From Corallococcus coralloides DSM 2259 (GTDB taxonomy: Bacteria; Myxococcota; Myxococcia; Myxococcales; Myxococcaceae), in NCBI RefSeq assembly GCF_000255295.1, contig NC_017030.1:4836001-4900000 (forward strand): 64,000 nt of DNA, given 5' to 3'. The notes beneath the pieces were generated by a model that worked only from the letters and a program-made list of their open reading frames with translations, did not search any database and was not told where the DNA came from. Positions 36,495 through 59,600 of the stretch are shown one piece after another (position 1 is the first letter of the stretch; every line of letters starts with the position of its first letter). Made by a program: the position numbers and the translations under genes.

Positions 36495-37520
36495 TCAGGC
36501 GGGCGTCGCGGACGACTCCGGCAATACCGTGCTTTCCGGGGCCTGCGCGCTCCGCCTCCAATGGCGGAAGAGCCACACGGCCACCAGTCCGTGGAGCAGC
36601 ACGCCGAAGACGCCCTCGCCGTTGAAGACCCAGACCTGACCGCCGAAGAGCCCCGGCCGGCCGTTGTAGACGCTGCCGAAGAGCTGCGGGTTGATGAGGT
36701 TCCAGCTGATGTGGAAGAGGGCGGGCGGCCAGATGGAGCGCGACGCCATGTAGAGCTGCGCGAACACCACCGCGGCCACGGCGATGGACAAGAGGAACGT
36801 CACGTTCTGCCCCATGTGCCCGCGCTGCACCTTGGAGAAGATGAAGGGCAGGTGGAACGCGGCCCACACCGGCATGGTGATGGCCGCGGCCAGCGCCGGC
36901 CGGTGCATCCACCAGCGCGTCAGCGTTCCGCGCCAGCCCACCTCTTCACCCAGCTCGCTGGGGACGCCGAAGCCCACGACGGGCGACCACACCAGCGCCG
37001 CCAGGCCGTAGCGCAGCCAGCGCCAGCGCTCGGGCAGCTTCGCGCCCAGCTTCTCCACCCAGCGCCAGCGCACGGACGCGGCGGCCAGCCACCACGTCAC
37101 CGTCATCGCCCAGAACATGAGGATCATCACCGGCACCGTCGCCACGCCCGTGACCCCGAACGGGCCCTTGAGCAGCTCCGGCTGATACGTGATGAAGGAC
37201 GCGTCCCCCGTGACGAAGCGGATCGCGTAGGCCAGCGGCGCGATGACGGCGGCGTACGCCAGGGGCAGCGCCAGCCCCAGGAACCACCACTTCCAGCCGG
37301 GGAAGGAGAAGCCCACCGCGGACGGGGGCTCGCGACGGAAGAACCACGAGCACGCGAGGCCCACGATGCCGGGCACGCACATCATCCAGCGCATCAGCCA
37401 CACGGACTCGCGCGTCTCGCCGCCCATGATGAACAGGACGGCCATCGTCCAGCTCACGGCGAGCGTCACCGCGAGGAACGTGAGGGTTTCTTTCCGGGGA
37501 TTCCTCATGTTCCGGAGCAT
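36495..37520 (-). CDS. CPBP-family intramembrane metalloprotease
   Basis: A 341-residue multi-pass membrane protein with about eight hydrophobic segments. The three CPBP (CAAX protease and bacteriocin-processing) motifs are present: ELGEEVGWRG (the EExxxR motif), FHLPF (FxxxH) and HISWN (HxxxN). Family members cut proteins within the membrane and include prenyl-protein proteases and bacteriocin-immunity proteins. The physiological substrate here is unknown. ATG 37520 and ATG 37508 are both possible starts. A perfect hairpin sits just upstream. It lies downstream of the CmlA-like gene on the same strand, so it could serve in export or self-protection of the NRPS product, but that is inference. 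Confidence 0.87.
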   Translation of the reverse strand: MLRNMRNPRKETLTFLAVTLAVSWTMAVLFIMGGETRESVWLMRWMMCVPGIVGLACSWFFRREPPSAVGFSFPGWKWWFLGLALPLAYAAVIAPLAYAIRFVTGDASFITYQPELLKGPFGVTGVATVPVMILMFWAMTVTWWLAAASVRWRWVEKLGAKLPERWRWLRYGLAALVWSPVVGFGVPSELGEEVGWRGTLTRWWMHRPALAAAITMPVWAAFHLPFIFSKVQRGHMGQNVTFLLSIAVAAVVFAQLYMASRSIWPPALFHISWNLINPQLFGSVYNGRPGLFGGQVWVFNGEGVFGVLLHGLVAVWLFRHWRRSAQAPESTVLPESSATPA

Positions 37521-37595: not shown

Positions 37596-39197
37596 TCAGC
37601 TCTTGAGGACGACCTCGCGCGCGCCCTCGAGTCGCTCGGCCTGCATGCCGCGCTCACGGGCGGTGGTGAGCAGCAGATCCGACTCCTTCATGCGGGGCGT
37701 CTCCGGCGTGGCGGCGGGCCCGATGATGTGCTCCATCCAGGGCTCCAGGCCCATGGCGTAGTTGAAGAGCCGCTTCGCTCCCACGAGCTCCAGCAGGCGC
37801 AGGCCTTCGGTGGAGTTGCTGCCGCGGCAGCGGCGGTTCTTCTCCAGCTTGCGGTCGCGCTTCTTGGGGAAGAAGCCCTCCAGCATCCACGTGTGCGGCG
37901 CGCCGACGATCTCCGTGTTCATGAAGACCGTGTGCAGGTCGCCCACGGTGCTGCGCAGGTCGCGGTACGTCGTCTCGTCCACGCACATGGAGTCGGCGGC
38001 GAAGAACAGGCGCTCCTCGCCCGTGCGGATGATCCACGCCGTCTTGGCGTGGGCCACGTCGCCGTGCTCGCCCATGAACGGCGCGGCGATGATCTCGCCG
38101 TCCGGGATGGGCAGGGACTCGTAGAAGTAGGGCTCCAGCACGTTCTTGAAGCCGAGCGCCTTGCCCAGGAGCCGGGGCGAGTAGTCACCCGCCAGTGCGC
38201 CGCTCGCGCGCGGCACCATCAGCGTGCCGACGCGGTGGCGCAGGCGCAGCAGCGTCTCGATGTCCAGGTGATCCGGGTGGCTGTGGGTGATGACCACGTA
38301 GTCGATGCGGCGGGGCAGGTCCGCGAAGGACATGCGCGCCAGCGGGCCCAGCTTCTCCGGCCGCACCGGCACCACCGCGTCGATGAGGATGGACGTGCCC
38401 TTCCACTCCACCAGCACGCACGCGTGGCCCACGTAGCGGATGCGCGGTCCCGGCCCGTTCCACGTCTCGGGAAGGGTCTGCGGCGCCTCCGTGAGCAGGG
38501 GCATCAGGTCCGCGTCGGACTGCACCGCGTCGCCCAGCACGTCGCGGATCCACTCCAGCGGCTTGGGCTCCAGGTCCAGGCTGAACAGCTTGTCCAGGCG
38601 CTCGTCGTGGAAGGGCACCTTCCAGTCCAGCTGCCCGGCCTCCATCAGGCGAGGCGTGGTGAGCAGCGAGTCGCGCTCCGCGTCCGCCTTCAGCCGGCGG
38701 ATCCGCATCGACTGGAGCTCCGTCTTGTGGTGGCGGCCGCGGTACAGCAGGCCTTCGTGCACGCGCATGGACGGGCGGTTCACGTAGTCGTACACCAGCT
38801 CCACCACGCCCTTGAGCGGCTCCGGCAGCCGCGCGTACAGCGGCTCCAGCGACTGGCCCTTGGCCTCCGCCAGGAGCTGCGTCTGGAACTCGTCGAACGC
38901 CTCCGCCAGCTTGATGTTGTCCTCCTGCGCGGTGGTCATCCGCTGCATGAGCGCCCGCACCTCTTCGGCGCGCTCCGGCGCGATGCCCACGAAGGAGCTA
39001 CCGCTCAGCTCCGGATCCTTCGCCGCCTTCGCGTGGAAGTCCGGCGTCTGCAGGTAGGCCTTCAGCAGCGGCAGCAGGTAGGCCTGCAGATGCAGGCTCG
39101 CGGGCATGGGCGCCACCGTCATCCACCAGGCCTGGAAGTCCTGGACGAGCGGTTCGACGAGGGTGGCGTCCGCGAGGCGATACAGAGGAGCAGTCAT
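37596..39197 (-). CDS. CmlA-like diiron, MBL-fold NRPS beta-hydroxylase
   Basis: A 533-residue protein, matching CmlA from chloramphenicol synthesis (532 residues), a diiron oxygenase that beta-hydroxylates an amino acid while it is bound to an NRPS carrier protein. Residues 1-245 are a helical N-terminal domain. Residues 250-533 are an MBL fold with THSHPDH, giving His305, His307, Asp309 and His310. Glu377 in GEHGD replaces the usual MBL histidine, and Asp402 is in AADS. As I recall them, CmlA iron ligands are H305, H307, D309, H310, E377, D403 and H468, a near-exact match in position. I do not see the last histidine; His490 is the nearest candidate. It is divergent from the giant NRPS gene. 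Generic MBL hydrolase is the alternative. Confidence 0.75.
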   Translation of the reverse strand: MTAPLYRLADATLVEPLVQDFQAWWMTVAPMPASLHLQAYLLPLLKAYLQTPDFHAKAAKDPELSGSSFVGIAPERAEEVRALMQRMTTAQEDNIKLAEAFDEFQTQLLAEAKGQSLEPLYARLPEPLKGVVELVYDYVNRPSMRVHEGLLYRGRHHKTELQSMRIRRLKADAERDSLLTTPRLMEAGQLDWKVPFHDERLDKLFSLDLEPKPLEWIRDVLGDAVQSDADLMPLLTEAPQTLPETWNGPGPRIRYVGHACVLVEWKGTSILIDAVVPVRPEKLGPLARMSFADLPRRIDYVVITHSHPDHLDIETLLRLRHRVGTLMVPRASGALAGDYSPRLLGKALGFKNVLEPYFYESLPIPDGEIIAAPFMGEHGDVAHAKTAWIIRTGEERLFFAADSMCVDETTYRDLRSTVGDLHTVFMNTEIVGAPHTWMLEGFFPKKRDRKLEKNRRCRGSNSTEGLRLLELVGAKRLFNYAMGLEPWMEHIIGPAATPETPRMKESDLLLTTARERGMQAERLEGAREVVLKS

Positions 39198-39501
39198 GGT
39201 GGGCGATCGCGAGGAGGCACCCGCACCCGGACTCGATTCACGGCGGTTCCGGGAAGGGAACTCGCGGAGTCAAGGAAGGGCGGGGTGAGTGCAGAAGACC
39301 AGGAAGCAGGGCTGACGAGCGAATGTGAGCGATTCGAGCAAATTGTTCAAGTTCGGTAGAACCCATTCCTAGTGGTATTCTCGTATCCAGTTCTGCTCCC
39401 CCGGACACATTGCAAGGGCGCCCGTGTCACGCACGTTGTGAGTGTGCGTCGCACAGGGAGTCGGCCCACTGAAGCTCTTGCGGTGTTCCCCGGCCTTCCG
39501 A
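39198..39501. other. Divergent promoter region of the NRPS locus
   Basis: A 304-base gap between the CmlA-like gene (minus) and the NRPS gene (plus), clearly less GC-rich near 39330-39390. A minus promoter candidate is listed separately. For the NRPS, an extended -10-like TGGTATTCT (39373-39381) is the best candidate but lacks a good -35. A near-palindrome GAGCAAATTGTTC (39336-39348) sits between them and overlaps the minus -35, a plausible operator. No gene is visible. Confidence 0.5.
39322..39350 (-). promoter_or_regulatory. Candidate promoter for the CmlA-like gene
   Basis: On the minus strand TTGAAC (39350-39345) is followed after 17 bases by CACATT (39327-39322). It matches the consensus at 4 of 6 and 3 of 6 positions. 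The transcript would start about 118 bases before ATG 39197. Confidence 0.35.
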
Positions 39502-41600
39502 ATGGGTTCTTCCTTGTCGCGTTCCCCTGAGCTGACGCCCTCGCATTCCACCCTCGTCGAAATCTTGCGGAGCCGGGCCGAGTCGTGGCCCGAACAGCCG
39601 CTGTACACCTTCCTGGATGACGCGGGTCAGGAAGACGGAACGCTGAGCTACGCGGGGCTGGACGCGCGGGCGCGGCGGATCGCGGTGGCGCTGCGGAAGG
39701 TGGCGAAGCCGGGCGAGCGCGTGATGCTGCTGTATCCGCCCGGGCTGGAGTACGTGGCGGGGTTCTTCGGGTGCCTCTACGCGGGGCTCATCGCGGTGCC
39801 GGCGTATCCGCCGGATCCGATGCGGCTGGAGCGGACGCTGCCGCGCCTGCGGGCGATCATCCAGGACGCGAACGCGACGGTGGTGCTCACCACGTCCGGC
39901 ATCCTGTCCATGACGGAGTTCGTCTTCGAGCAGGCGCCGGACCTGCGCTCGCTGCACTGGGTGGGGACGGACGAGATCCCGGCGGGTGGGGAAGCGGAGT
40001 GGACGCCGCCGGAGGTGGACGCGTCGACGCTGGCGTTCCTCCAGTACACGTCGGGGTCCACGGGCTCGCCCAAGGGCGTGATGCTGAGCCACGGCAACCT
40101 GGCGCACAACCTGGCGCTGATCACGGACGCGTTCGAGCTGGGCCCCACCAGCTCGGCCGTCATCTGGCTGCCGCCGTACCACGACATGGGGCTCATCGGC
40201 GGCATCCTCACGCCGCTGTACGCGACGTTCCACGCGGCGCTGATGTCGCCGCTGACGATGCTCAAGAACCCGCGCGTGTGGCTGGAGGCCATCACCCGCT
40301 ACAAGGCCACCATCAGCGGCGGGCCGAACTTCGCGTTCGACCTGTGCGTGCGGCGCATCCCGGCGGAGGAGCGGCAGTCGCTGGACCTGAGCTCGTGGAA
40401 GGTGGCGTTCACCGGCGCGGAGCCCATCCGTCCGGCGACGCTGGATCGCTTCGAGCAGGCCTTCGGGCCGCACGGCTTCAAGCGGGAGTTCTTCTTCCCG
40501 TGCTACGGCCTGGCGGAGGCGACGCTGCTGGTGTCGGGCGGGCGCGTGGAGGCGCCGCCGGTGAGCTGCGCGCTGGATGCTCCGGCGTTGGAGCAGCGCC
40601 GGGCGGTGCTGGTGGACGCGGCGAAGCCGGAGGCGCGCGTCCTGGTGGGCTGCGGCGATGAGCGGCCGGGACACCCGGTCGTCATCGTGGATCCCCAGAC
40701 GCGCGAGGCGTGCGCGCCCGGCGGCGTGGGTGAAATCTGGGTGCGCGGCCCCAGCGTGGCGCTGGGCTACTGGAACAAGCCGGAGGCGACGGCGGAGGCG
40801 TTCCAGGCGCGCGTGAAGGGAACGGATGAAGGCCCGTTCCTGCGCACCGGCGACCTGGGCTTCATGCGGGACGGCGAGCTGTACGTCACCGGCCGGGCCA
40901 AGGACCTGATCATCATCCGCGGCCGCAACCACTACCCGCAGGACATCGAGCAGACGGTGGAGGAGAGCCACCCCGCGCTGCGTGCGGGCAGCGTCGCGGC
41001 GGTGTCGCTGGAGGTGGCGGGCGAGGAGCGCCTGGTGGTGGTGCAGGAGATCGACCTGCGCAAGGCGGGCAACCTGCGCAAGCAGGTGGACATGGCGGAG
41101 GCGGCGGTGAAGGAGATCCGCCAGCGCGTCGCCGAGCGTCACGAAGTCCAGGTGCACGCCGTGGCGCTGATCGAGCCCGGCAGCATCCCGAAGACCTCCA
41201 GCGGGAAGATCCAGCGGCACGCGTGCAAGGCGCAGTTCCTCGCGGACGAGCTGCGCACGGTGCTGGTGTGGCGCGAGCCGGGGTTCGAGGAGGCGGAAGA
41301 GACGGAAGCCGCCGAGTCCTCGGAGCCTGCGGCTGCGCCGGTCCGTGAGGACGTGCCGGAGGCCGCGCGGGCCACGCTGACGTGGCTGGTGGAGCGCGTG
41401 GCGGAGCAGCTCAAGGTGCCGGCGAAGACGGTGGACGTGCGTGAGCCCATCACGCGCTACGGCCTGGATTCGCTGAGCGCGGTGGAGCTGGCGCACGCCG
41501 TGGAGAAGGGGCTGGGGATCGCGCTGCCCATGGAGCTGCTGCTCCAGGGCCCGAGCCTGGTGGAGCTGGCGAAGCGCATCACGGCGTCGAAGCAGGAGCC
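39502..41600 (+). other. NRPS loading unit: fatty acyl-AMP ligase and acyl carrier domain
   Basis: The FAAL domain (residues about 1-610) has YTSGSTGSPKG with Lys191 and the FAAL-typical WLPPYHDMGLIGGIL at 222-236. It also has FYPCYG-like FFPCYGLAEATL, TGDLGF and KDLIIIRGRNHYPQDIE. It activates a fatty acid as the adenylate and passes it to the carrier domain, whose phosphopantetheine serine is Ser657 in GLDSL. This makes the product a lipopeptide. Acyl chain length cannot be read from the sequence. Confidence 0.88.
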
Positions 41601-44600
41601 GAAGGCGGCGGTGCTCGCGCCCCGGCCGCGTGGGGCGACGCAGCCGCTGTCGTTCGCGCAGCAGCGCCTGTGGTTCCTGGACCGGTTGGAGCAGGGCAGC
41701 GCGCTCTACAGCATCCCGGGCGCGGTGCGGCTGGACGGCGCGCTGGATGCCGAATCGCTGCGGCGGAGCCTGGAGGAGATCGTCCGCCGGCACGAATCGC
41801 TGCGCACGACGTTCCGCGAGGAGAACGGCGAAGCGGTGCAGCTCATCCACCCGGCGAAGGCCTTCGAGCTGCCGGTGGTGGACCTGACGGGCTTCCCGGA
41901 GGCGTCGCGCGAGGCAGAGGCGCGGCGGTGCGTGGATGAAGAGGCCGTGCGCCCGTTCGACCTGGGCTCTGGCCCGCTGGTGCGCGCGCGGTTGCTCAAG
42001 CTGGGTGAAGCGAAGCACGTGCTGCTGGTGACGATGCACCACATCGTCTCCGACGGCTGGTCCATGGGTGTGCTCGTGCGCGAGGTCGCAGCGCTCTACG
42101 ACGCGTTCCGTGGCGGACGGGGTTCTCCGCTGCCGGAGCTGCGCGTGCAGTACGCGGACTTCGCGCAGTGGCAGCGGGAGTGGCTGCTGGGCGGCGTGTT
42201 GGAGAAGCAGGTCGGTTACTGGAAGCAGCGGCTGGCCGGAGCGCCCGCCGTGCTGGAGCTGCCGACGGACTTCGCGCGTCCGGCTGCGCAGACGTATCGC
42301 GGCGCGACGGTGCCGGTGAAGCTGGGCGCGGAGCTGGGAAAGGCGCTGGGCGCGCTGGCGAAGAAGGAAGGCGTCACGCCGTACATGCTGCTCCTGGCCG
42401 CGTTCCAGGTGCTGCTGGGGCGCTACAGCGGGCAGGACGACATCTCGGTGGGTTCGCCTATCACGGGCCGCTCGCGTGCGGAGACGGAGGGCCTCATCGG
42501 CTTCTTCGTCAACACGCTGGTGCTGCGCACGAAGCTGGAGGGCAACCCGTCCTTCCGCGCGCTGCTGGCCCAGGTGAAGGAGACGACGCTGGGCGCGTAC
42601 GCGCACCAGGACGTGCCGTTCGAGAAGCTGGTGGAGGAGCTGCAGCCGCAGCGCAGCCTGAGCCACGCGCCGCTGTTCCAGGTGATGTTCGTGTTGCAGC
42701 AGGACGTGCTGCCGCACTTCCGTCTGCCGGGCGTGGAGCTGTCGCCGTACGAGGTGGAGTCGAAGACGGCGAAGTTCGACCTCACGCTCTACCTGACGGA
42801 GACGGCGGGCGGGCTGGAAGGGACGCTCGAGTACAACACGGACCTGTTCGCCGCGGCGACGGCGCGGCGGATGATGGAGCACCTGCGGGTGCTGCTGGAG
42901 TCACTGCTCACGGATCCGGGCGCGAAGCTGTCCGACCTGTCGCTGATGGGAGCGCAGGAGAAGCAGACGCTGCTCAAGGACATCTCGGGGACGGACCTGT
43001 CGGCCCCGGTGAGCGGGACGATGCAGGCGCTCTTCGAGGCGCAGGCGGCACGCACGCCGGATGCGCCCGCGGTCCACTTCGACGGGCAGGTGCTGACGTA
43101 CGCGCAGCTGGACGCGCAGGCGAATCAGCTGGCGCACCATCTACGTGGCATGGGCGTGGGCCCGGACACGCTGGTGGGCGTGAGCCTGGAGCGTTCCGCG
43201 CGCATGGTGGTGGCGCTGCTGGGCGTGCTGAAGGCGGGCGGCGCGTACGTGCCGCTGGATCCTGCGTACCCGCGTGACCGTCTGGGCTGGATGCTGGAGG
43301 ACGCACAGGCGCCGGTGCTGCTGACGCAGCAGAAGCTGCTGGGCGTGCTGCCCGAGCACTCCGCGAAGGCCGTCTGCGTGGACGCGGACTGGGCCGTGAT
43401 CGCGACGCAGCCGACCACGCCTGTCGCGACGAGCACGGGCGTGGGGAACCTGGCGTACGTGCTGTACACGTCGGGCTCGACGGGCCGTCCGAAGGGCGTG
43501 GCGATCGAGCAGCGCAGCGTGGTGGCGTTCCTGCACTGGTCAACGGCTGCGTTCACGAAGCAGCAGCTGGCCGGCGTGCTGGCGGCGACGTCGCTGAACT
43601 TCGACCTGTCGGTGTTCGAAGTCTTCGCGCCGCTGAGCAGCGGTGGTGCCGTCATCGTCGCGGAGAACGCGCTGGCGTTGCCGACGCTGAAGGACGCGAG
43701 CCGGGTGACGCTGGTGAACACGGTGCCCTCCGCGATGGCGGAGCTCGTGCGCAGCCAGGGCGTGCCTGAGTCGGTGCGCACGGTGAACCTCGCGGGCGAG
43801 CCGTTGCTGAACCGGCTGGCGAAGCCTCTGTACGGACTGAAGAACGTGGAGGGCGTCTACAACCTCTACGGCCCGACGGAAGACACGACGTACTCGACGT
43901 ACACGCGGGTGGAGAAGGATGCCGCGCGGGAGCCGACGATTGGCCGTCCGCTGACGGGCTCGCGTGCGTACGTGCTGGATGCGTGGCTGCGTCCGGTACC
44001 GCAGGGCGTGCCGGGCGAGCTGTACCTGGCGGGCGCGGGCCTCGCGCGAGGCTACCTGGCCAAGCCGTCGCTGACGGCGGAGCGCTTCGTGCCGAACCCG
44101 TTCTCGGAGCAGCCGGGAGCGCGGATGTACCGCACGGGCGACCGCGTGCGCTGGCTTGCGACGGGCGAGCTGGAGTACCTGGGCCGCATCGACTTCCAGG
44201 TGAAGGTGCGCGGCTTCCGCATCGAGCTGGGCGAGGTCGAGTCAGCGCTGGCGTCGCAGCCCGGCGTGCGCGAGTCCGTGGTGGTGGTGCGCGAGGACGT
44301 GCCGGGCGACAAGCGCCTGGTGGCGTACGTCGCGGGCACGTCGCTGGACGTGGCGGAGCTGCGCAAGGGCCTGAAGGCGCGGCTGCCGGAGTACATGGTG
44401 CCGTCGGCGTTCGTGGTGCTGAACGCGCTGCCGCTGACGCCCAACGGGAAGGTGGACCGCAAGTCGCTGCCGGTGCCGGAAGGCCAAGCTTCACAGAGCC
44501 AGTACGTGGCGCCGCGCACGGCGACGGAGGAGCAGGTCGCGACGCTCTTCGCGCAGTTGCTGCGCGTGGAGCGCGTGGGCGCGGAGGACTCGTTCTTCGA

Positions 44601-47600
44601 GCTGGGCGGCCACTCGCTGCTGGCGATGCAGTTGGTCTCCCGGCTGCGCACGGCCTTTGGCATCGAGGTCCCGCTGCGCTCGCTCTTCGAGCTGAGCACG
44701 GTGGCCTCGCTCGCGGCGTTCATCGACGGGAAGAAGCAGCAGGCGGAAGGCGCGAACCTGCCGCCGTTGAAGCGGGTGGTTCGTGAGGGCTCGCTGCCGC
44801 TGTCGTTCGCGCAGCAGCGCCTGTGGTTCCTGGACCGGCTGGAGCAGGGCAGCGCGCTCTACAACATCCCGGGCGCGGTGCGTCTGGAGGGTGCGCTGGA
44901 CGTGGAGGCCCTGCGCCTGACGCTCCAGGAGATCGTCGCGCGGCACGAGTCCCTGCGCACGACGTTCCGTGAGGAGAACGGCGAGGCAGTGCAGAGCATC
45001 CAGGCCGCGGGCCGGATGGACCTGCCCGTGGTGGACCTGTCGACCGTGGCCGAAGCGGAGACCCAGCGCCTGGTCAACGAGGAGGCCGTGCGTCCATTCG
45101 ATCTGGGCACGGGTCCGCTCTTCCGCGCTCAGTTGCTGAAGCTGGGCGAGGCGAAGCACGTGCTGCTGGTGACGATGCACCACATCGTCTCCGACGGTTG
45201 GTCCCTGGGCGTGCTCGTGCGTGAGATGGCCGCGCTCTACGAGGCGCACTCGCAGGGCCGCGCCATGCCCCTGCCGGAGCTGGCGGTGCAGTACGCGGAC
45301 TTCGCGCAGTGGCAGCGGGAGTGGCTGCTGGGCGGGGTGCTGGAGAAGCAGGTCGGCTACTGGAAGCAGCAGCTGGCTGGGGCTCCTGCGCTGCTGGAGC
45401 TGCAGACGGACTTCGCGCGTCCCGCGGTGCAGACGTACCGGGGCGCGACGGTGCCGGTGAAGCTGGGCGCGGACCTGAGCCGCACGCTGAACGCGCTGGC
45501 GAAGCAGGAAGGTGTCACGCCGTACCAGTTGCTCCTGGCCGCGTTCCAGGTGCTGCTGGCGCGCTACTCGGGCCAGGACGACATCTCGGTCGGTTCGCCC
45601 ATCGCGGGCCGGACGCAGGCGGAGACGGAAGGGCTCATCGGCTTCTTCGTCAACACGCTGGTGCTGCGCACGAAGCTGGCGGGCAACCCGACCTTCCAGC
45701 AGGTGCTCAAGCAGGTGCGTGAGACGACGCTGGGCGCGTACGCGCACCAGGACGTGCCGTTCGAGAGGCTGGTGGAGGAACTCCAGCCGCAGCGCAGCCT
45801 GAGCCACGCGCCGCTGTTCCAGGTGATGTTCGCGCTGCAGCAGGACGTGCTGCCGCACCTGAAGCTGTCGGGCATGGAGCTGTCGCCGTACGAGGTGGAG
45901 TCGAAGACGGCGAAGTTCGACCTGACGCTCTTCCTCACGGAAACCGCGGGCGGGCTGGAAGGCACGCTGGAGTACAACACCGACCTGTTCACGGCGGCGA
46001 CGGCGCAGCGGATGACGGAGCACCTGCGGGTGCTGCTGGAGTCCGTGGCGGTGCGGCCCATGGCGAAGGTGTCTGACCTCGCGCTGATGAGCGCGCAGGA
46101 GAAGCAGACGCTGCTGATGGACGTGTCGGGGACGGACCTGCCGGCCCCGGTGAGCGGGACGATGCAGGCGCTCTTCGAGGCGCAGGTTGCGCGCACGCCG
46201 GACGCGGCGGCCGTCTACTTCGACGGACAGGTGCTGACGTACGCGCAGTTGGAGGCGCAGGCGAACCAGCTGGCGCACCATCTGCGTGGCATGGGCGTGG
46301 GTCCGGACACGCTGGTGGGCGTGAGCCTGGAGCGTTCCGCGCGGATGGTGGTGGCGCTGCTGGGCGTGCTGAAGGCCGGTGGCGCGTACGTGCCGCTGGA
46401 TCCTGCGTACCCGCGTGACCGTCTGGGCTGGATGCTGGAGGACGCGCAGGCGCCGGTGGTGCTGACGCAGCAGAAGCTGCTGGGCGTGCTGCCCGAGCAC
46501 TCGGCGCGCAACGTGTTCCTGGATACCGATTGGGAGACCATCTCCAAGAACCCTGTTTCGCGCGTCGATCCGCGCACGGGCGTGAGGAACCTGGCGTACG
46601 TGCTGTACACGTCGGGCTCGACGGGCCGTCCCAAGGGCGTGGCCATCGAGCAGCGCAGCGTGGTGGCCTTCCTGCACTGGGCGACGGCGTTTTTCACGCC
46701 GCAGCAGCTGTCGGGCATGCTGGCGTCGACGTCGCTGAATTTCGACATCTCGGTGTTTGAAGTCTTCGCGCCGCTGAGCGTCGGTGGTGCCGTCATCGTC
46801 GCGGAGAACGCACTGGCGCTCCCGACGATGAAGGACGCGAGCCGGGTGACGCTGGTGAACACGGTGCCCTCCGCGATGGCGGAGTTGCTGCGCAGCGGGG
46901 GCGTGCCGGACTCGGTGCGGACGGTGAACCTCGCCGGTGAGCCGTTGCTGAACCGGCTGGCGCAGGCGGCGTACGGGCTGAAGAACGTGGAGGCCGTCTA
47001 CAACTTCTACGGCCCGACGGAAGACACGACGTATTCGACGTACTTGCGCGTGGAGAAGGGTGCTGCGCGGGAGCCGACGGTGGGCCGTCTCCTGACGGGC
47101 TCGCGGGGGTACGTGCTGGATGCATGGCTGCGTCCGGTGCCGCAGGGCGTGCCGGGCGAGCTGTACATCGCGGGTGCGGGCCTCTCGCGAGGGTACCTGG
47201 CCAAGCCGGCGCTGACGGCGGAGAAGTTCGTCCCCAATCCCTTCAGCCAGGAGCCCGGCGCGCGGATGTACCGCACGGGCGACCGCGTGCGCTGGTTGGC
47301 GAATGGCGAGCTGGAGTACTTCGGCCGCATCGACTTCCAGGTGAAGGTGCGCGGCTTCCGCATCGAGCTGGGTGAAGTGGAGTCGGTGCTGTCCACGCAG
47401 CCCGGCGTGCGCGAGTCCGTGGTGGTGGTGCGCGAAGACGTGCCCGGCGACAGGCGCCTGGTGGCGTACGTCGCGGGCGCGTCTCTGGACGTGGCGGAGC
47501 TGCGCAAGGGCCTGAAGGCGCGGCTGCCGGAGTACATGGTGCCGTCGGCGTTCGTGGTGCTGAACGCGCTGCCGCTCAATCCGAACGGGAAGGTGGACCG

Positions 47601-50600
47601 CAAGTCGCTGCCGGTGCCGGAGGCCCAGTCGTCGCAGGGCCAGTACGTGGCGCCGCGTACGGCAACGGAAGAGCAGGTGGCGACGCTCTTTGCGCAGTTG
47701 CTGCGCGTGGAGCGCGTGGGTGCGGAGGACTCGTTCTTCGAGCTGGGCGGACACTCGCTGCTGGCAATGCAGCTGGTCTCCCGGCTGCGCACGGCCTTCG
47801 GCGCCGAGGTCCCGCTGCGTTCGCTCTTCGAGCTGAGCACGGTGGCTTCGCTCGCGGCGTTCGTGGATACGGCCGTGTCAGGCCGTGATGCGTCCAAGGC
47901 CCCGGCGATCACGGCTCGGCCCCGGAGCGCCACGGAGTCACTGTCGTTCGCTCAGCAGCGTCTGTGGTTCCTGGACCAACTGGAGCAGGGCAGCGCCTTC
48001 TACAACGTGGCGGGCGGTGTGAAGCTGGAGGGTGCGCTGCATGTGGATGCCATGCGGCGGGCCTTGGAAGAGATCGTCCGCCGACATGAGTCGCTGCGCA
48101 CGACCTTCCGCGATGAGAACGGTCAGGCGGTGCAGGTCATCCACCCGGCGAAGGTCTTCGAACTGCCGGTGGTGGACGTCTCCGGGGCACAGGACACGGA
48201 AGCGCGGCGGCTGGCGGAGGAAGAGGCCACGCGCCCGTTCGACCTGGGCACGGGTCCGCTCTTCCGGGCCAAGCTGCTGAAGCTGGGTGAGGCGAAGCAC
48301 GTGCTGCTGGTGACGATGCACCACATCGTCTCCGACGGCTGGTCCATGGGGGTCCTCGTGCGCGAGGTCGCCGCGCTCTACGAGGCCCAGGTCCTCAAGC
48401 AGAAGTCGCCGCTGCCGGAGCTGGCGGTGCAGTACGCGGACTTCGCGCAGTGGCAGCGGGAGTGGCTGCTGGGCGGGGTGCTGGAGAAGCAGGTCGGCTA
48501 CTGGAAGCAGCAGCTGGCCGGAGCGCCCGCGGTGCTGGAGCTGCCGACGGACTTCGCGCGTCCCGCGGTGCAGACGTACCGGGGCGCGACGGTGCCGGTG
48601 AAGCTGGGTGCGGACCTGAGCCGCACGCTGAACGCGCTGGCGAAGCAGGAAGGCGTCACGCCGTACCAGCTGCTGCTGGCGGCGTTCCAGGTGCTGCTGT
48701 CGCGCTACTCGGGCCAGGACGACATCTCGGTGGGCTCGCCCATCGCGGGCCGGACGCAGGCGGAGACGGAAGGGCTCATCGGCTTCTTCGTCAACACGCT
48801 GGTGCTGCGCACGAAGCTGACGGGCAACCCGAGCTTCCAGCAGGTGCTCAAGCAGGTGCGCGAGACGACGCTGGGCGCGTACGCGCACCAGGACGTGCCG
48901 TTCGAGAAGCTGGTGGAGGAACTCCAGCCGCAGCGCAGCCTGAGCCACGCGCCGCTGTTCCAGGTGATGTTCGCGCTGCAGCAGGACGTGCTGCCGCACC
49001 TGAAGCTGTCGGGCGTGGAGCTGTCGCCGTACGAGGTGGACGCGAAGTCGGCGAAGTTCGACCTGACGCTGTCGCTGACGGAGACGGCGGGCGGATTCGA
49101 AGGAACGCTCGAGTACAACACCGACCTGTTCACGGCGGCGACGGCGCAGCGGATGACGGAGCACCTGCGGGTGCTGCTGGAGTCCGTGGCGGTGCGGCCC
49201 ATGGCGAAGCTGTCCCAGCTCGCGCTGATGGGCCCGCAGGAGCGTCACCAGGTGCTGGTGGCGTGGAACGACACGCGCGCCGACGTCACGGGTGACGTGA
49301 CGTTCCCGGTGCTCTTCGAGGCCCAGGTACGTCGCGCGCCGGACTCGCAGGCGCTGGTGTTCGAGGATGCCTCGCTGACGTACGCGCAGCTGGACGCGCG
49401 GGCGAACCAGCTGGCGCACCACCTGCGCACGCTGGGCGTCGGGCCCGAGGTGCGCGTGGCGCTCTGCGTGGAGCGTTCGCTGGAACTCGCGGTGGCGATG
49501 CTCGGCATCCAGAAGGCCGGTGGCGCCTTCGTGCCGTTGGATCCGTCCTACCCGCGTGAGCGCCTGTCCTTCATGCTGGAGGACAGCGGCGCGCCCGTAC
49601 TGGTGACGCAGTCGTCGCTGAGCCAGCAGCTGCCCGCCGACGGCCTGCGCGTGGTGCGCATGGACGTGGAGGCGGCGCACCTGCGGACGCTGCCGGAGAC
49701 TGCTCCGGCCTCCAGCGCCAACGCCGACACCCTGGCGTACGTCATCTACACGTCCGGCTCCACGGGCCGCCCCAAGGGCACGCTCCTGCCGCACCGTGGC
49801 CTCAACAACACGGCCCGGCAGGCCGCCGCGGCGAAGGGCCTGGGCACGGGCCGCCGCGCGCTGCAGTACGCGGCGTCCAGCTTCGACGCCAGCGTGTGGG
49901 AGGTGTTCAGCACGCTCGTGTCCGGGGCCACGCTGGTGCTCGCGCCCCGCGACCGGCTGCTGCCGGATGAGCCTCTGCGCACGCTGCTGAAGTCGCAGCG
50001 CATCAGCACCGTGACGCTGACGCCGTCGGTGCTCGCGCAGCTGAGCACGGACGGGCTGGATGGCCTGTCCACCATCGTCTCCGCCGGTGAGGCGCTGAGC
50101 GTGGAGATGGCTCGCAAGTGGGGGCAGGGCAGGACGCTGATCAACGCGTACGGCCCCACCGAGACCACGGTCTGCGCGACCCTCACGCACGGCGGCGTCC
50201 GGGCGGAGCGCCTGACCATCGGCAAGCCGCTGGCGAACGTGCAGGTGTACGTGCTGGATGCCCTGCACCACCCGGTGCCCGTGGGCGTCGCCGGCGAGCT
50301 GTACGTCGCGGGTGAAGGCCTGGCGCGCGGCTACCAGGGCCGGCCGGACATGACGGCCGAGAAGTTCGTCCCCAACCCGTTCAGCAACGAGCCCGGCGCG
50401 CGGCTGTACCGCACCGGCGACCGCGTGCGCTGGCTGGCCGAGGGCGAGCTCGAATACCTGGGCCGCATCGACCACCAGGTGAAGGTGCGCGGCTTCCGCA
50501 TCGAGCTGGGTGAAATCGAGGCCGTGCTGCTGCGCCACGCGGACGTGCGTGAGGCGGCGGTGGTGGTGCGCGAGGACGTCCCGGGCGACAAGCGGCTCGT

Positions 50601-53600
50601 CGGCTACGTCGTGCCGCAGCCGGGGCGGACGGTGGACGCGGCCTCGCTGCGCAAGCACCTGAAGGACGGCGTGCCGGAGTACATGGTGCCGTCGGCGTTC
50701 GTCGTCCTGGACGCGCTGCCGATGACGCCCGCCGGCAAGGTGGACCGCAAGGCCCTGCCAGCCCCCACGGGCGCGCTCACGCGTCCGGACGCCTACGTGG
50801 CCCCGCGCACGCCGACGGAAACGCGCGTGGCGGCCCTCTTCGCGCGCGTGCTCACCGTGGAGCGCGTGGGCGCGGAGGATTCGTTCTTCGAACTGGGCGG
50901 CCACTCGCTGATGGCCACCCAGCTGGTGTCGCGCCTGCGCGGCGAGTTCCAGGTGGAGCTACCCCTGCGCGCGCTCTTCGAGTCCCCGACGGTGGCCGCC
51001 CTGGCCGCCCGCGTGGACGAGGCCACCGGCGCCGAGCGGAAGTTCAAGACGCCGCCGCTCAAGCCCGCGTCGCGCGAGGGCTCGCTGCCGCTGTCGTTCG
51101 ACCAGGAGCGCCTCTGGCTCTTCGAGCAGCTCACGCCGGGCACGCCCATCTACAACGTGCCCAGCGCGGCGCGCCTGAGCGGCGACCTGGACGTCGAGGT
51201 GCTCCGCCGCGGCCTGGAGGAGATCGTCCGTCGCCACGAGGCGCTGCGCACCGTCTTCCATCAGGACGCGTCCGGTTCTCCCGTGCAGGTCGTCCTGCCG
51301 GCGAAGCCGTTCGTGCTGCCCGTGGTGGACCTGTCCTCGCTGCCCGCCGACAAGGCGGAGGCCGAGGCCCGGAAGCACCTGAACGCGGAGGCCGCTCGGC
51401 CCTTCGACCTGGTGCAGGGTCCGCTGCTGCGCGCCCAGCTCCTGAAGCTGAGCGCGCGCGAGCACGTGCTGTGCCTCGCCATGCACCACATCGTGGTGGA
51501 TGGCTGGGCCGTGGGCGTGTTCATGAACGAACTCCAGGCGCTCTACACCGCGTTCTCGCGCGGCGAGCCCTCGCCGCTGCCCGCGCTGCCCGTGCAGTAC
51601 GCGGACTACACGCTCTGGCACCGCCAGTGGCTGAGCGGTGACGTGCTGGAGCAGCAGATTGCCTGGTGGAAGAAGCAGCTCGCCGGAGCGCCCCGCATCG
51701 CGCTGCGCACGGACGCGCCGCGCCCCGCGGGTGATCGCTTCCACGGTGACAGCCGCCGCTTCCACCTGTCCCCGGACCTCACGTCCCGCATCGAAGCGCT
51801 GGGGCGAGGGGAGGGCGCCACGCTGTTCATGGTGCTGCTCGCCGCGTTCGACGCGCTCCTGCACCGCCGCACGGGCCAGGACGACATCGTCGTGGGCACG
51901 GACATCGCGAACCGCGCCCGCGAGGAGCTGGAGTCCCTGGTCGGCTTCTTCACCAACCAGCTCGTCCTGCGCACGCAGGTGTCCGGCGACCTGTCCTTCC
52001 GCGCGCTGCTGGACCGCGTGCGCAAGGGGACCCTGGATGCCTACGAGCACCAGGACCTGCCCTTCGGCACGCTGGTGCAGGCGCTCAAGCCGCCGCGCGA
52101 GCCGGGTGGCCAGCTCTTCAACGTGAAGTTCGTTCTGGAGAACGCGCCGCTGCCGCCGCTCCAGCTCCCCGGCCTGGAGCTGAGCCTCCTGGACGCGGAG
52201 ACGAACGGGACCGCGAAGTGGGACCTGCTCGTCGTCGTGTTCCCGTGGCAGGGCGGGCTCACCGTCACGGTGGAGCACAACACGGACGTGCTCGACCGCG
52301 CGTCGGTGGAGCGCCTGTTCGCCCACTTCGAGTCGCTGCTGCGCGCCGTCGTGGAGAACCCCGAGCACCGCATCGGCACGCTGCCGCTGCTCACGCAGGA
52401 TGAGCGCGGCACGCTCGCCGCGTGGAACGACCGCCCGCGGACGTACCCGCACGGCCAGCCCGTGTCGCGCGTCTTCGAGGCGCAGGCCGCCCGCGCCCCT
52501 GACGCGGTCGCCGTGAGCTTCGAAGGGGAGACGCTCACCGCCGGCCAGCTCAACGCGCGCGCCAACCAGCTCGCGCACCACCTGCGCGCCCTGGGCGTCA
52601 GGCCCGGCAAGCGCGTGGGCGTGTCCCTGGAGCGTTCGCTGGACCTCGTCGTGGCGGTGCTGGGCATCGCCAAGGCGGGCGGCGCGTACGTGCCGCTCGA
52701 CCCCAGCTTCCCCACCGAGCGCCTGTCGATGCTCATCGAGGACGCGGGCCTGTCCGCGCTCGTCAGCGTCTCCGCGATCGCGGACGAGCTGCCCGCGCAG
52801 TGGCTCCAGGTGGTCTGCCTGGATGACGACGCGGCCACGCTCGCGAAGCGTCCGGACACGAACCTCGACACCGCGCCCACGGGCGAGGACGAGCTGTACG
52901 TCCTCTACACCTCCGGCTCCACGGGCCGCCCCAAGGGCGTGTCCGTGCCCCACCGCGCCGTCGTGCGCCTGGTGTGCGGACCGGAGTGGGTGAGCCTGTC
53001 GTCGAAGGAGGTCTTCCTCCAGCTGGCGCCGCTCGCGTTCGACGCGTCCACCTTCGAGCTGTGGGGCGCGATGCTCAACGGCGCGAAGCTCGCCGTGTTC
53101 CCGCCGCGCGCGCCCACCCTGGACGAGCTGGGGGAGGTCATCACCCGCGAGGGCGTGAGCACGCTGTGGCTCACCGCGGGTCTGTTCCACCAGATGGTGG
53201 ACGGCAACCTGGACGGCCTGCGTCCCGTGCGCCAGCTGCTGGCCGGTGGTGACGTGCTGTCCCCCGCGCACGTGCTGCGCGTGATGGAGCAGCTGCCCGG
53301 CTGCCGCGTCATCAACGGCTACGGCCCCACGGAGAACACGACGTTCACCGCGTGCTACCCGGTGGAGGACGCGGGCGCGCTGGGCATCTCCGTGCCCATC
53401 GGCCGACCCATCAACGGCACGCGCGTGCACGTCCTCAACGCGTCCCTGGAGCCCGTGCCCCTGGGTGCCCCCGGTGAGCTGTTCGCGGGCGGCGACGGCC
53501 TGGCGCACGGCTACCTGAACCAGCCGGAGCTGACGGCGGAGAAGTTCATCCCGGATCCGTTCAGCACCGTGCCGGGCGCGCGGCTGTACCGCACCGGCGA

Positions 53601-56600
53601 CCAGGTCCGCTTCCGCGCGGACGGCTCGCTGGAGTTCCTGGGCCGCATCGACCAGCAGGTGAAGGTGCGCGGCTTCCGCATCGAGCCGGGCGAGATCGAG
53701 ACGGCGCTGCGTGGACACCCGTCCGTGCTCGACGTCACCGTGGCCGTGCAGGAGGTCGCGGGCGAGAAGGCCCTGGTGGCCTACGTCGTCACGGAGGAGG
53801 GCGCGGAGCCGCTGGGCGTGGACACGATGCGTTCGTTCCTCCACGACAAGCTGCCCGCGTACATGGTGCCCACGGCGCTGATGGAGCTGGACGCGATGCC
53901 GCTCACGCCCAACGGCAAGGTGGACCGTCGCGCCCTGCCCGTGCCCGGCAGCGAGCGTCCGCAGATGTCCACCGCGTACGCCGCTCCTCGCACCATGGAG
54001 GAGACCGCGCTGTGCGAGGTCTGGGCGGAGGTCCTGGGCGTGGAGCGCGTCGGTATCGACGACAGCTTCTACGACCTGGGTGGTGACTCCATCCGCAGCA
54101 TCCAGCTCATCGCGAAGCTGCGCGAGCGCGGGCTGGATCTGCCCATGGTGGAGCTGCTGCGTCAGCCCACCATCCGCGCGCTGGGGAACCTGGTGCACGC
54201 GGCCCCGTCGAAGGCCGCGGCGCAGGCCGTGCCGGGCTCGGAGCCCTTCAGCCTGCTGTCCGACGCGGACCGCGCGCGCCTGCCCGCGGACGTGGAGGAT
54301 GCGTACCCGGTGGCCGTGCTCCAGGCCGGCATGCTCTTCCAGAGCGAGCTGGACCAGGCGTCCGGCATGTACCACGACGCCACCAGCTACCACCTGGAGA
54401 TGGCGCTCGATGAGGCGAAGATGCGCCAGCTGCTGGCCGAGCTGGCCCGCCGCCACGCCATCCTGCGCACGTCGTTCGACCTCACCGGTTACGAGCAGCC
54501 GTTGCAGTTCGTGCACCGCGAGGCCCAGGTGCCGCTGGAGCTCCACGACGTGCGCCACGTGCCCGCCGCCGAGCAGGACGCGCTGTTGCGCAAGCTCGTG
54601 GAGGAGGACCGCTGCCGTCCGTTCGACTGGAGCCGCGCGCCGCTCTTGCGCTTCGCGATCTACCGGCGCACGGAGAAGACGCTCCAGTTCTCGCTCATCT
54701 TCCACCACGCCATCCTGGATGGTTGGAGCCTCGCGACGCTGCTGTCGGAGCTGTTCCGCGGCTACGTGAACCTGCTGCGCGGCACGCCGGCCCCGGAGGC
54801 GGCGCCGCTGGCCGTCACCTACCGCCAGTTCGTCGCGCTGGAGCACCAGTCGCTCACCTCCGGCGAGGGCGAGCAGTTCTGGAAGTCGCGCCTGTCGGAA
54901 GTGGACCGTCCTGCTCCCCGCGCGCCGCTGCCCGCGGGCCAGGAGCCGGTGCTGAGCATGCGGCAGGTGGATGTGCCCGCCGCGCTCCAGGACGGACTGC
55001 AGCGCGTGGCGCAGGCGGCCAACGTTCCGCTGAAGACCGTGCTGCTGGCGGCGCACCTGCGCGTGCGCGCGCTCATGGAGGGACAGCGCTCGGTGGTGAC
55101 GGGCGTGGTCTCCAACGGCCGTCCGGAGACGGCCGACAGTGAGCGCATGGTCGGCCTGTTCCTCAACAGCATCCCGTTCCCGGTGACGCTGGAGGACGGC
55201 TCGTGGCTGGACCTGGTGCGCCAGGTCTCGAAGGCGGACGGCGACATCTGGCCGCACCGCCGCTACCCCATGGGCCGGTTGCAGCAGCAGCTGGGGGGCC
55301 AGCGGCTGTTCGAGACCATCTTCAACTTCGTCCACTTCCACGTGGCCGGAGGCCTGTCGCAGCTCGAAGGCGTGCGCCTCTTGGAAGAGACGCCGTCCAC
55401 CGCGTGGATGGAGCTGCCGCTGAGCACGCTGTTCCTCCAGCGCCCGGACACCGGCGCGCTGATGCTCGTGCTGCGCACCAACGGCACGCAGCGCGACGCG
55501 GACCAGACGGAGGCGCTGGCGGGCTACTACTTCCGCGCCCTCGAAGCGATGGCCGCCAACCCGCACGCGCGTCACGAGCACGCGCGGCTGCTGCCGGACG
55601 CGGAGCGCCAGAAGCTGCTGGTGGAGTGGAACGCCACGGGCGCCCAGCCCGCGGGTGACACCTGCGTCCATGAGCGCTTCGCTGTCCACGCGGCCCGTAC
55701 GCCGGACGCCGTGGCGGTGGTCTGCGACGACGGCCAGCTCACCTACGGGGAGCTGAACCGCAGGGCCAACCAGCTCGCGCACTGGCTGCGCGCGCGCGGC
55801 GTGGGCCCGGATGCGCGCGTGGGCCTGCTCACCGAGCGCACCCCGGATGCCATCGTCGGCATGATGGGCATCCTCAAGGCCGGTGGCGCGTACGTGCCGC
55901 TGGATCCGTCGCATCCGCCGGAGCGCCTGCGCACGGTGCTGGAGGACGCGTCGGCCTCACTCGTGGTCACCCAGGCCTCGCTCGCCGCGCACGTGGCGGA
56001 CGCCTCCAGGGGACACGTGTGCCTGGACTCCGACGCCGCGCTGCTCTCGCGCGAGCGTGAGGACGACCCGAAGCGCCTGGGCGACGCGAGCTCCCTGGCC
56101 TACGTCATCTTCACGTCCGGCTCCACGGGCCGGCCCAAGGGCGTGGCCATCGAGCACCGTCAGCTCAACCACTACGTGGAGGGCGTGACGCTCCGGCTGG
56201 AGCTGCCCCCGGCGGCGAGCTTCGCGTCGGTGTCCACGCTGGCCGCGGACCTGGGCCACACCGCCGTCTTCCCGACGCTGAGCGGCGGCGGCACGCTGCA
56301 TCTCATCTCCCGCGACCGGGCGTCCGATCCGGCCGCGCTGGGCGACTACTTCCAGCGCCACGCGGTGGACTGCTTGAAGATCGTCCCCTCGCACCTGACG
56401 GCGCTCCTGTCGTCGCCGTCGCCCGAGCGCGTCCTGCCGCGCAAGCGGCTGGTGCTGGGTGGTGAGGCGTCCGATCCGGCGCTCGTGGCGCGCGTGCACG
56501 CGCTCGTGCCCGGGCTCGAAGTCTTCAACCACTACGGCCCCACCGAGACCACGGTCGGCGTGCTGACGTGGAAGGTGGAGCGGGGCACGCAGCTGTCCGC

Positions 56601-59600
56601 CACGGCCTCCGTGCCGCTGGGCCGGCCGCTGCCCAACGCGCGGATGTACGTGCTGGACGCGGCGCTGCAGCCCGTCCCCGTGGGCGTGCCCGGCGAGCTG
56701 TTCATCGGCGGCGCGGGCGTGGCCCGGGGCTACCTGGGCCAGCCCGGCCTCACGATGGAGCGCTTCCTGGCGGATCCGTTCCACCCGGAGCCGGGCGCGC
56801 GCGTGTACCGCACGGGTGACCGCGTGCGCTACCTGCCGGACGGCGCGCTGGAGTTCCTGGGCCGCGTCGACTTCCAGGTGAAGGTGCGCGGCTTCCGCAT
56901 CGAGCTGCCGGAGATCGAAGCCGCGATGAGCGGCCTGCCCGGCGTCGCGGAGGTCGTCGTGCTGGCGCGCGAGGACGTGCCGGGCGACAAGCGCCTGGTG
57001 GCCTACGTCGTCGCGGTGCCCGGCCACACGCTGGAGGCCGGGGCGCTTCGCCAGGGCCTGAAGTCGCGGCTGCCGGACTACATGGTGCCGTCCGCCTTCG
57101 TCATGCTGGACGCGCTGCCGCTCACGTCCAACGGCAAGGTGGACCGCCGCGCGCTGCCCGCGCCGGAGAAGGAGACCGAAGCCGGCCGCGCCCACGTGGC
57201 CCCGCGCACTCCCACCGAGGAGCTCATCGCGGGCCTGTGGTCCAAGCTGCTGGGCGTGGAGCGCGTGGGCGTGAAGGACGACTTCTTCGCGCTCGGCGGC
57301 CACTCGCTGCTGGCGACGCAGATGATCTCCCGCATCCGGAGCGCGTTCCGCGTGGAGCTGCCCCTGCGCGCGCTCTTCGAGGCGACCACGGTGGAGACGC
57401 TCTCCGCCCGCGTGGACGAGGCGGTCCGCCAGGGCTTCGGCCTGGAGGCGCCGGCCATCGTGCCGCTGTCGCGTGAGCACACGCTGCCGCTGTCGTTCGC
57501 GCAGCAGCGCCTGTGGTTCCTGGATCAGCTGGAGCCGGACAGCGCGTTCTACAACATCGCCGCGCCGGTGATGCTGGACGGCTCGCTGGAAGTGGCCCCG
57601 CTGGAGCAGGCCTTCACGGAGCTGGTGCGCCGTCACGAAGTGCTGCGCACCACCTTCCGCGCGGAGGGTGGCAACCCGGTGCAGGTCGTCCACCCGGCGG
57701 CCCCCATGCCGCTGCCGCTCGTGGACCTCACGCACCTGCCGGAGGCCGAACGCGAGGCGAAGGCGCAGCGTCTGGCGGATGAGGACGCGGGCAGGCCGTT
57801 CAACCTGGCCACGGGCCCGCTGCTGCGCGCCACGCTGGTGCGCATCTCGGACGTGCGCCACATGCTGCTGCTCACGGTGCACCACATCGTGTCCGACGGC
57901 TGGTCGCGCGGCGTGCTCGTGCGTGAAGTGGCCGCGCTCTACGAGGCCTTCCGCCAGGGCAAGCCGTCGCCGCTGCCGGAGCTGCCGGTGCAGTACGCGG
58001 ACTACTCGGGCTGGCAGCGCGGCTGGCTCCAGGGCGACGTGCTGAAGAAGCAGGTCGGCTACTGGAAGCAGCAGCTGACCGGCGCGCCCTCCGCGCTGGA
58101 ACTGCCCACGGACTTCCCGCGCCCGGCCGTGCAGACGTACCGCGGCGAGACGCTGCCCTTCACGCTGCCGCGCGAGCTGTCGGATGCCCTGCGCGCCCTG
58201 GCGCTGAAGGAAGGCGTCACGCCGTACATGCTGCTGCTCACCGCGTGGCAGGTGCTGCTGGCGCGCCACGCGGGCCAGGACGACGTCACGGTGGGTTCGC
58301 CCGTGGCGGGCCGTGGCCGCATGGAGACCGAAGGCCTCATCGGCTTCTTCATCAACACGCTCGTGCTGCGCACGCGGCTGGAAGGGGACCCCTCGTTCCG
58401 CCAGGTGCTCGCGCGGGTGCGGGAGTCGGTGCTGGGCGCGCACGCGCACCAGGAAGTGCCCTTCGAGAAGCTGGTGGAGGAGCTGCAGCCGGTGCGCGAC
58501 ACCAGCCGCTCGCCGCTCTTCCAGGTGTGGTTCGTGCTGCACCAGGAGCTGGCGGCGAAGCTGTCCGTCCCGGGCCTCACTCTGAGCGCCTACGAGGCGG
58601 AAGCGCGCACCGCGAAGTTCGACCTGGCCCTGTCCATGCTGGACGCGGCGGACGGCTTCGTGGGCCGCCTGGAGTACAACTCCGACCTGTTCGCCCGCGC
58701 GACCGCAGAGCGGATGATGGCGCGCCTGCACGTGCTGCTGGCGGGCATCGTCGCGAAGCCCGAGTCGGCCGTGGGTGAGCTGCCCCTGCTGTCCGCCGAG
58801 GAGCGGCACCAGGTGCTGGTGGGCTGGAACAGCGTGCGCGCGGAGCTGCCGCGCGAGGCGACCATCCACTCGCTCATCGAAGCGCACGCGGAGGCCACGC
58901 CGGACGCGGTGGCCCTCGTGTACGAGGACCAGTCGCTCACGTACGCGGAGCTGGACGTGAAGGCGAACCAGCTGGCGCACCACCTGCGCCGCCGGTACGT
59001 CGGACGCGAAGTGCGCGTGGCGCTCTGCCTGGAGCGCTCGCTGGATCTCGTGGTGGGCATGCTCGGCATCCTCAAGGCCGGCGGCGCCTTCATCCCGTTG
59101 GATCCGTCGTACCCGGTGGAGCGGCTCGACTACATGCTGTCGGACTCGGGCGCGCCGGTGCTGGTGACGCAGGAGTCGCTGATGGACTCGCTGCCCACCG
59201 ACGGCCGCCTGACCATCCAGCTGGACATGGACGTGGACGCCATCGAGCGGATGCCGGAGGAGGCACCGCGCTCGGGCACGTCCGCCCACAACCTGGCCTA
59301 CGTCATCTACACGTCCGGCTCCACGGGCCGTCCCAAGGGCACGCTGCTCCAGCACGAGGGCCTGGTGAACACGGCCCTGCGCGCCGCCGCGGCGAAGCGG
59401 GTGGGGCCGGGCAGCCGCGTGTTGCAGTACGCGGCGTCCAGCTTCGATGCCAGCGTCTGGGAGATCTTCAGCACCCTGGCCGCGGGCGCCACGCTGGTGC
59501 TCGCGCCGCGCGACCGGCTGATGCCGGACGAGCCGCTGCGCACGCTGCTGAAGGAGCAGGGCATCACCACCGCCACGCTGACCCCGTCGGTGCTCGCGCA

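Follow-up and report, generated by a model that had tools for sequence, protein, structure and literature searches.

The locus described here raises the question of which amino acid residue is modified by a CmlA-type β-hydroxylase encoded next to a very long non-ribosomal peptide synthetase (NRPS) gene. The window, i.e. the whole stretch of 64,000 nucleotides that was analysed, covers positions 4,836,001-4,900,000 of the 10.08-Mb single-contig genome of Corallococcus coralloides DSM 2259. The hydroxylase gene (37596..39197, minus strand) is intact and encodes 533 amino acids from an ATG, as originally predicted. The NRPS gene begins on the plus strand across an intergenic region (39198..39441, counted to the first in-frame GTG and compared between genomes), and the two genes are thus divergent, again as predicted.

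The family of the enzyme was assessed with Pfam, phmmer and a predicted structure. Pfam placed a CmlA_N domain over residues 7-239 (E 9.3e-88) and families of the metallo-β-lactamase (MBL) fold inside residues 252-418, the MBL domain starting at about residue 250, and with these matches the reading frame is not a chance one. The best sequence matches in the PDB were FrsH (8a90, E 1.7e-89) and CmlA (4jo0, E 1.9e-81), both over almost the full length, at identities of 34.8 % and 32.8 %, respectively. The residues H305, H307, D309, H310, E377 and D402, which the original prediction had equated with the metal ligands of CmlA, are identical in CmlA and FrsH and do not vary among the 60 family sequences compared. 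Four of them lie in the motif HSHPDH (residues 305-310), encoded at 38268..38285 on the minus strand according to translation and alignment. We take the diiron ligands of CmlA to be H305, H307, D309, H310, E377 and D403 in CmlA numbering, a list checked through alignment; D403 of CmlA corresponds to D402 here, and all six residues are in place. Because this list contains three histidines, a "last His" is no part of the site. The residue that had been put forward for that role, H490, was rejected, being V in CmlA, F in FrsH and H, N or Q inside the enzyme's own clade (clade I, see below).

The structure was predicted from ten aligned family members, with a mean pLDDT of 83.3 and a pTM of 0.87. 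The whole-length CmlA/FrsH fold is present in the model, in agreement with the helical N-terminus and MBL fold foreseen from the sequence, while residues 430-458 and 483-494 are poorly modelled (pLDDT below 50). In Foldseek the model gave TM 0.93 against FrsH and 0.89 against CmlA, and in VIA Z 45.0 and 42.6, respectively. All FrsH and CmlA rows in VIA spanned Z 41.7-45.0, whereas the remaining MBL-fold rows reached at most 20.4 and aligned chiefly to the C-terminal domain. That the protein is an ordinary MBL-fold hydrolase without relation to the NRPS is hardly conceivable. NCBIfam models of metal-dependent hydrolases do match it, weakly, over about 60 residues and far under their cut-offs, and the idea is already contradicted by the CmlA_N domain, the near full-length match to FrsH and CmlA and the presence of E377 and D402. 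Judged from sequence and model, the product of 37596-39197 is almost certainly an NRPS-linked β-hydroxylase; it would be expected to bind iron as a non-heme diiron enzyme, to use O2 and to act on a carrier-bound substrate.

The NRPS gene (39442..64000 on the plus strand, continuing past the window to 71016) encodes 10,524 amino acids with the domain order FAAL-ACP-(C-A-T)x9-TE. Its frame opens at a GTG at 39442. An ATG at 39502 (MG[SP]SL) is common to the six genomes of the window type and may be the actual start, as far as the sequence comparison tells; the letters upstream of this ATG are partly conserved too. The AMP-binding and ACP domains at the N-terminus (39571..41580, plus strand; AMP-binding at 44-444 and PP-binding at 648-713 of the translated piece) probably load a lipid, a FAAL reading suggested by their position and the domain order. 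The A-domain codes, extracted with a GrsA numbering fragment, were DLFNNALTY, DIFNNAFTY, DAWTVAAVC, DAFWLGGTF and DLTKVGHVG in modules 1-5 and DAWTVAAVC, DACTIAAVC, DLTKVGEVG and DFWNVGMVH in modules 6-9. We take them to mean Ala-Ala-Phe-Val-Asp-Phe-Phe-Asn-Thr, an order read from the usual meanings of the codes and not from a specificity server. To our knowledge, the product of this cluster has not been described. The original prediction had named Phe, Tyr or Asp as the hydroxylated residue; no Tyr code is present among the nine A domains, and Val, which had been left out, is loaded by module 4 according to its code. The Phe code of module 6 (DAWTVAAVCK, presumably Phe, in the piece 58966..60393, plus strand) is replaced in the relative G004 by an Asn code (L069-L070). 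That A domain shares 94 % identity with the one for Asn in module 8 of the window NRPS, and it looks like a module copied within the gene.

The modules at the centre of the present proposal are all on the plus strand. Module 4 consists of a C domain (51085..52413), an A domain (52474..53919) with the code DAFWLGGTFK, read as Val, and a T domain (T4, 54007..54192) with the motif LGGDSI. It is followed by the C domain of module 5 (C5, 54286..55620) and by the A and T domains of that module (55681..57414), with the code DLTKVGHVGK, read as Asp. C5 is only 27-30 % identical to the other eight C domains of the NRPS, which are 44-84 % identical to each other. In a phmmer search of the PDB with a C5 query that lacked ~40 residues at its start and included some linker, McyA scored 338 bits, AmbE 189 and McyB 162, and the next matches 119 or less. 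A quick tree built from 25 C domains, with a long AmbE branch, placed C5 in a group with McyA, AmbE and two further related ones at a support of 99, and both the search and the tree separate it from LCL domains and the remaining C domains. The motifs given for CmodAA domains in the available part of the corallorazine report are [K/R]SVLLAAH, R(R) at motif C6 and a retained DG (PMC11342130). C5 is the only one of the nine C domains with KTVLLAAH (T for S) and HRRYP, it keeps the DG in HHAILDG, and at E 1e-65 it is the only CmodAA-like match in the genome. By these sequence features C5 is a C domain of the CmodAA (dehydrating) type. None of the other eight module T domains shares the D in the motif of T4, and LGGDSI is presumably the T_E-type motif. 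In the part of the literature available to us, a T_E-type motif was reported in T domains upstream of dehydrating C domains, the C domains after dehydrovaline in myxovalargin fell in the dehydrating group, and hydroxylases were considered probably to put the hydroxyl on in line before dehydration (PMC10880069).

The type of C5 makes Val4 the most specific candidate for the target residue. CmodAA domains need a β-hydroxylated donor and module 4 loads Val by its code, so that a tailoring enzyme would have to supply the hydroxyl, and the CmlA-type enzyme provides the simplest mechanism. We lean, with slightly better than even confidence, towards the view that this enzyme hydroxylates Val on T4 and that C5 then dehydrates it to dehydrovaline. 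As a diiron monooxygenase of the CmlA family, the enzyme would hydroxylate the β carbon of a carrier-bound aminoacyl residue on the neighbouring nine-module NRPS. With Val on T4 as the target, β-hydroxy-Val would be formed; C5 would remove water from it on its donor side and then join the residue to Asp5. The product would be acyl-Ala-Ala-Phe-dehydroVal-Asp-Phe-Phe-Asn-Thr, with α,β-dehydrovaline at position 4. The CmlA gene has been kept in all six genomes of the window type.

The association of A4-like A domains with dehydrating C domains was also seen outside the window. The 59 related genomes contain at least 23 CmodAA-like domains, spread over 17 of them. A4 was used as a query in seven genomes and the best 17 of about 150 A-domain rows were looked at. 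Among these 17, the eight closest A domains (63-100 % identity; A4 itself, two orthologues and five others) were all followed by a CmodAA within 301 bp, compared to none of the nine next-best ones (55-58 % identity), which indicates that the A4-type A domain, the T domain and CmodAA travel together. A CmlA gene was located within 15 kb of four of the eight cassettes, namely the three window-type copies and one in G030:C4. The latter cluster has a distant CmlA (41 % identity) and the same order of Val code, LGGDSI and CmodAA as the window, and in a third CmlA-linked cluster, G029, CmodAA comes after a Thr code. For the other four cassettes (G006:C1:6623237-6626299, G010:C5, G012:C765 and G002:C477), a CmlA homologue was not found, whether on the contig or within 600 kb. 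This result is firm in the single-contig genome G006; G010, G012 and G002 are fragmented, and it is less firm there. Another kind of hydroxylase may thus serve such a cassette.

The relatives of the hydroxylase itself point less clearly to Val. CmlA, NRPS and C5 of the window type occur together in six genomes (G000, i.e. the window genome, G004, G006, G008, G010 and G013), and the CmlA of G004 is 93 % identical to that of the window. In a quick family tree, which carries long-branch warnings and from which five CmlA sequences (three short, two truncated) had been removed, the enzyme belongs to a clade of 23 sequences (clade I), parted by a long branch from a second myxobacterial clade (clade II, ~38 % identity) as well as from CmlA and FrsH. 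A search of 195 genomes of the phylum at E 1e-120 found clade I in 23, all of one family. Its marker residues, shared by at least 95 % of the members and different in clade II, CmlA and FrsH, include N427, T428, K445, R447, K453, C457 and R458, and most of them fall in the poorly modelled stretch.

Clade I genes occur in eight cluster types with differing NRPSs. This comparison excludes G018 (contig end) and G118; the clusters of G003, G014, G030 and G128 end at contig ends and those of G116 and G140 are partial. A clear CmodAA was found in the window type (G000 and G004) alone among 13 clade I loci and in none of the 11 others, several of which end at contig ends, so clade I as such is not tied to CmodAA. 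The CMOD profile was built including C5, and its 694 bits for the window are by construction; in several other clade I loci it beat the ordinary-C profile by 0 to 34 bits, and the domains behind these small margins may be epimerisation or D-type domains. The mixed cluster types and the restriction of CmodAA to the window type argue against a simple equation of clade I with Val and keep Asp5 and Asn8 alive as targets. In that case the enzyme would hydroxylate Asp5 and/or Asn8 to give a β-hydroxy-Asx lipopeptide, and C5 would carry out plain condensation or some other modification. An Asp, Asn or Asn-like code is indeed present in all eight cluster types, and the two without a Phe-like code share Asn-like and Ala codes (G145, where Ala is the only aliphatic code) or an Asn code (G102) with the window. 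The Lys and Arg residues that mark clade I at positions 445, 447, 453 and 458, in contrast to clade II, CmlA and FrsH, also speak for an Asx substrate. However, the NRPS of G145 may be incomplete, as the contig begins 4.6 kb before it, the link between CmlA and NRPS in G102 is weak (~13 kb apart, across a MATE and a TldD-type gene), and with an Asx target the CmodAA after Val would be left without a hydroxylated donor. We regard Asx hydroxylation as rather unlikely, while still a serious rival.

Phe has lost more ground. Hydroxylation of Phe3, Phe6 or Phe7 would resemble the action of CmlA itself on an aromatic residue and of KasD, which in the part of the report available is proposed to act on Phe (PMC5061366). 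Phe-like codes occur in six of the eight clade I cluster types, G145 and G102 being the exceptions. Phe6 in particular is disfavoured by the Asn in module 6 of G004, a genome with an almost unchanged CmlA, and for any of the three residues the CmodAA would stay unexplained. We consider a Phe target improbable.

Co-occurrence of codes was also assessed against a control of four one-contig genomes, in which loci with about four or more C domains each were set by hand and A domains were typed by identity to A5, A8 and A6, not by code. Among the matches listed, Asx-type A domains were present in 4/4 clade I loci and in 5/21 NRPS loci without CmlA (Fisher p 0.01), and exactly the same figures were obtained for Phe/Tyr-type A domains (4/4 compared to 5/21, p 0.01). 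Of the single types, again among the matches listed, Asn gave the strongest association (3/4 compared to 1/21, p 0.007), and Asp gave 3/4 compared to 5/21 (p 0.08). Since Asx and Phe/Tyr are equally enriched, choosing the residue from code co-occurrence alone was abandoned; if anything, the statistics lean towards Asn.

A single enzyme could also act on several residues of the chain, Val plus Asx or Phe. Chitinopeptins carry β-hydroxylated Asp, Phe and Ile, and their clusters have an MBL-fold gene likened to CmlA, according to the part of that report available (PMC9248904); FrsH also takes other substrates, with D-Leu and Ile among those tried, as stated in the accessible portion of its description (PMC7794379). 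Against this stand the clusters with two CmlA genes in G103, G125, G135 and G145, which suggest a division of labour, and such broad action of the present enzyme seems improbable to us. Two CmlA-type genes per cluster were observed in G103 (L174-L175), G125 (L168-L169 with L192), G135 (L172 with L194), G145 (L162-L163), G026 (L104-L105) and G034 (L108-L109). In the first four of these, one gene comes from each clade, and the pairs suggest one hydroxylase per residue type. At the clade I loci of G014 (L074), G128 (L166) and G103 (L174), the last domain of the adjoining NRPS is a C domain, and no TE match was obtained. The window genome itself has a second CmlA homologue (L014, G000:C1:5825205-5826755; 38 % identity), with no NRPS domain within ~20 kb on either side, as is the case for its counterparts in G006, G010, G013 and G032; it is perhaps a remnant, or an enzyme that works in trans.

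The other genes around the NRPS encode, upstream, a CAAX-protease-like protein, a TPR protein, PFK, a kinase, a sigma-54 activator and MutL, and downstream a trypsin-like protein, an aldo/keto reductase, a P450 and Lon. The P450 gene, between those of the aldo/keto reductase and Lon (75056-76369 in window numbering, past its end; L010:11056-12369) and ~4 kb after the NRPS, encodes the only oxygenase besides the CmlA-type enzyme among the neighbouring proteins scanned. It is present in G004, G006 and G008 and absent in G010 and G013, where both flanking genes are in reach. As it is missing in two of five relatives that keep the NRPS, it is not a constant partner, and it was rejected as the Val hydroxylase. 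The CAAX-protease-like gene (36495-37520) adjoins CmlA in the window type and had no match at the clade I loci of G011, G003, G141 and G022; it was likewise rejected as a part of the system. An open reading frame at 106968-107714, 36 kb past the NRPS, resembles a PhyH-type oxygenase by eye in its first 40 letters.

The locus combines one hydroxylase gene, one NRPS gene and one dehydrating C domain, which would make the route of hydroxylation followed by dehydration directly testable with three domains and one enzyme. If Val4 is the target, the +16 Da by which the product was originally to be recognised would miss it, since the expected net change is -2 Da; the mass shift to be sought is -2.016 Da instead of +15.995 Da. 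In a wider sense, the window enzyme, from a separate Myxococcaceae branch of the CmlA family with part of its sequence changed around residues 427-458, might work here as an in-line Val β-hydroxylase, and the Val A domain, the T domain with LGGDSI and CmodAA might form a transplantable dehydrovaline cassette, a proposal that we put forward tentatively and with more doubt than belief. Such an enzyme kind could also account for the as yet unexplained hydroxyvaline and dehydrovaline residues that other Corallococcus peptides contain. According to the accessible part of one report, the origin of β-hydroxyvaline has not been identified for myxoprincomide and needs work for corramycin (PMC10099666), and in the portions of the literature seen, dehydrovaline formation was proposed and not reconstituted. 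The added value of the present analysis is in the pairing of a hydroxylase with CmodAA, in a different mass to look for and in a test system of small size.

Of the known systems, FrsH, the Leu β-hydroxylase of FR900359, shares the fold (TM 0.93), the six ligands and the partnership with an NRPS with the window enzyme, and differs from it in acting on Leu, in sequence and in its separate branch of the tree. CmlA of chloramphenicol biosynthesis likewise has the two-domain fold and the ligands, whereas its substrate is p-aminophenylalanine. C5 shares the CmodAA motifs and the clade with McyA, AmbE and Crz1-C2. The dehydrating C domain of McyA presumably acts on Ser; Crz1-C2 acts on Ser and AmbE on hydroxylated Glu, whereas the window module loads Val. 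In the open-licence PMC papers, available mostly as titles and beginnings of abstracts, we recognised no work on this cluster or on a Corallococcus dehydrovaline lipopeptide with CmlA besides that on myxovalargin and corramycin. The dehydro-amino acids and hydroxyvaline of myxovalargin, also from Corallococcus, are proposed in the available part of the report to stem from MxvH (PMC9853869). Myxovalargin is like the window system in that the C domains after its dehydro residues are grouped as dehydrating, MxvH being compared here by its proposed role; its peptide and starter differ from those of the window lipopeptide. The cryopeptins are isolated dehydrovaline lipopeptides, and CrpA of Pedobacter (38 % identity to CmlA and FrsH) is proposed, in the part of the paper at hand, to hydroxylate Val, which a modAA C domain then dehydrates (PMC12181424). 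As likened by this description, both systems have a CmlA-like enzyme, an NRPS with modAA-type C domains and a lipopeptide product, while the cryopeptin system is from another phylum and gives a linear product with several dehydrovaline residues. The window thus combines the three elements of the cryopeptin proposal, a CmlA-type enzyme, a Val module and a CmodAA domain.
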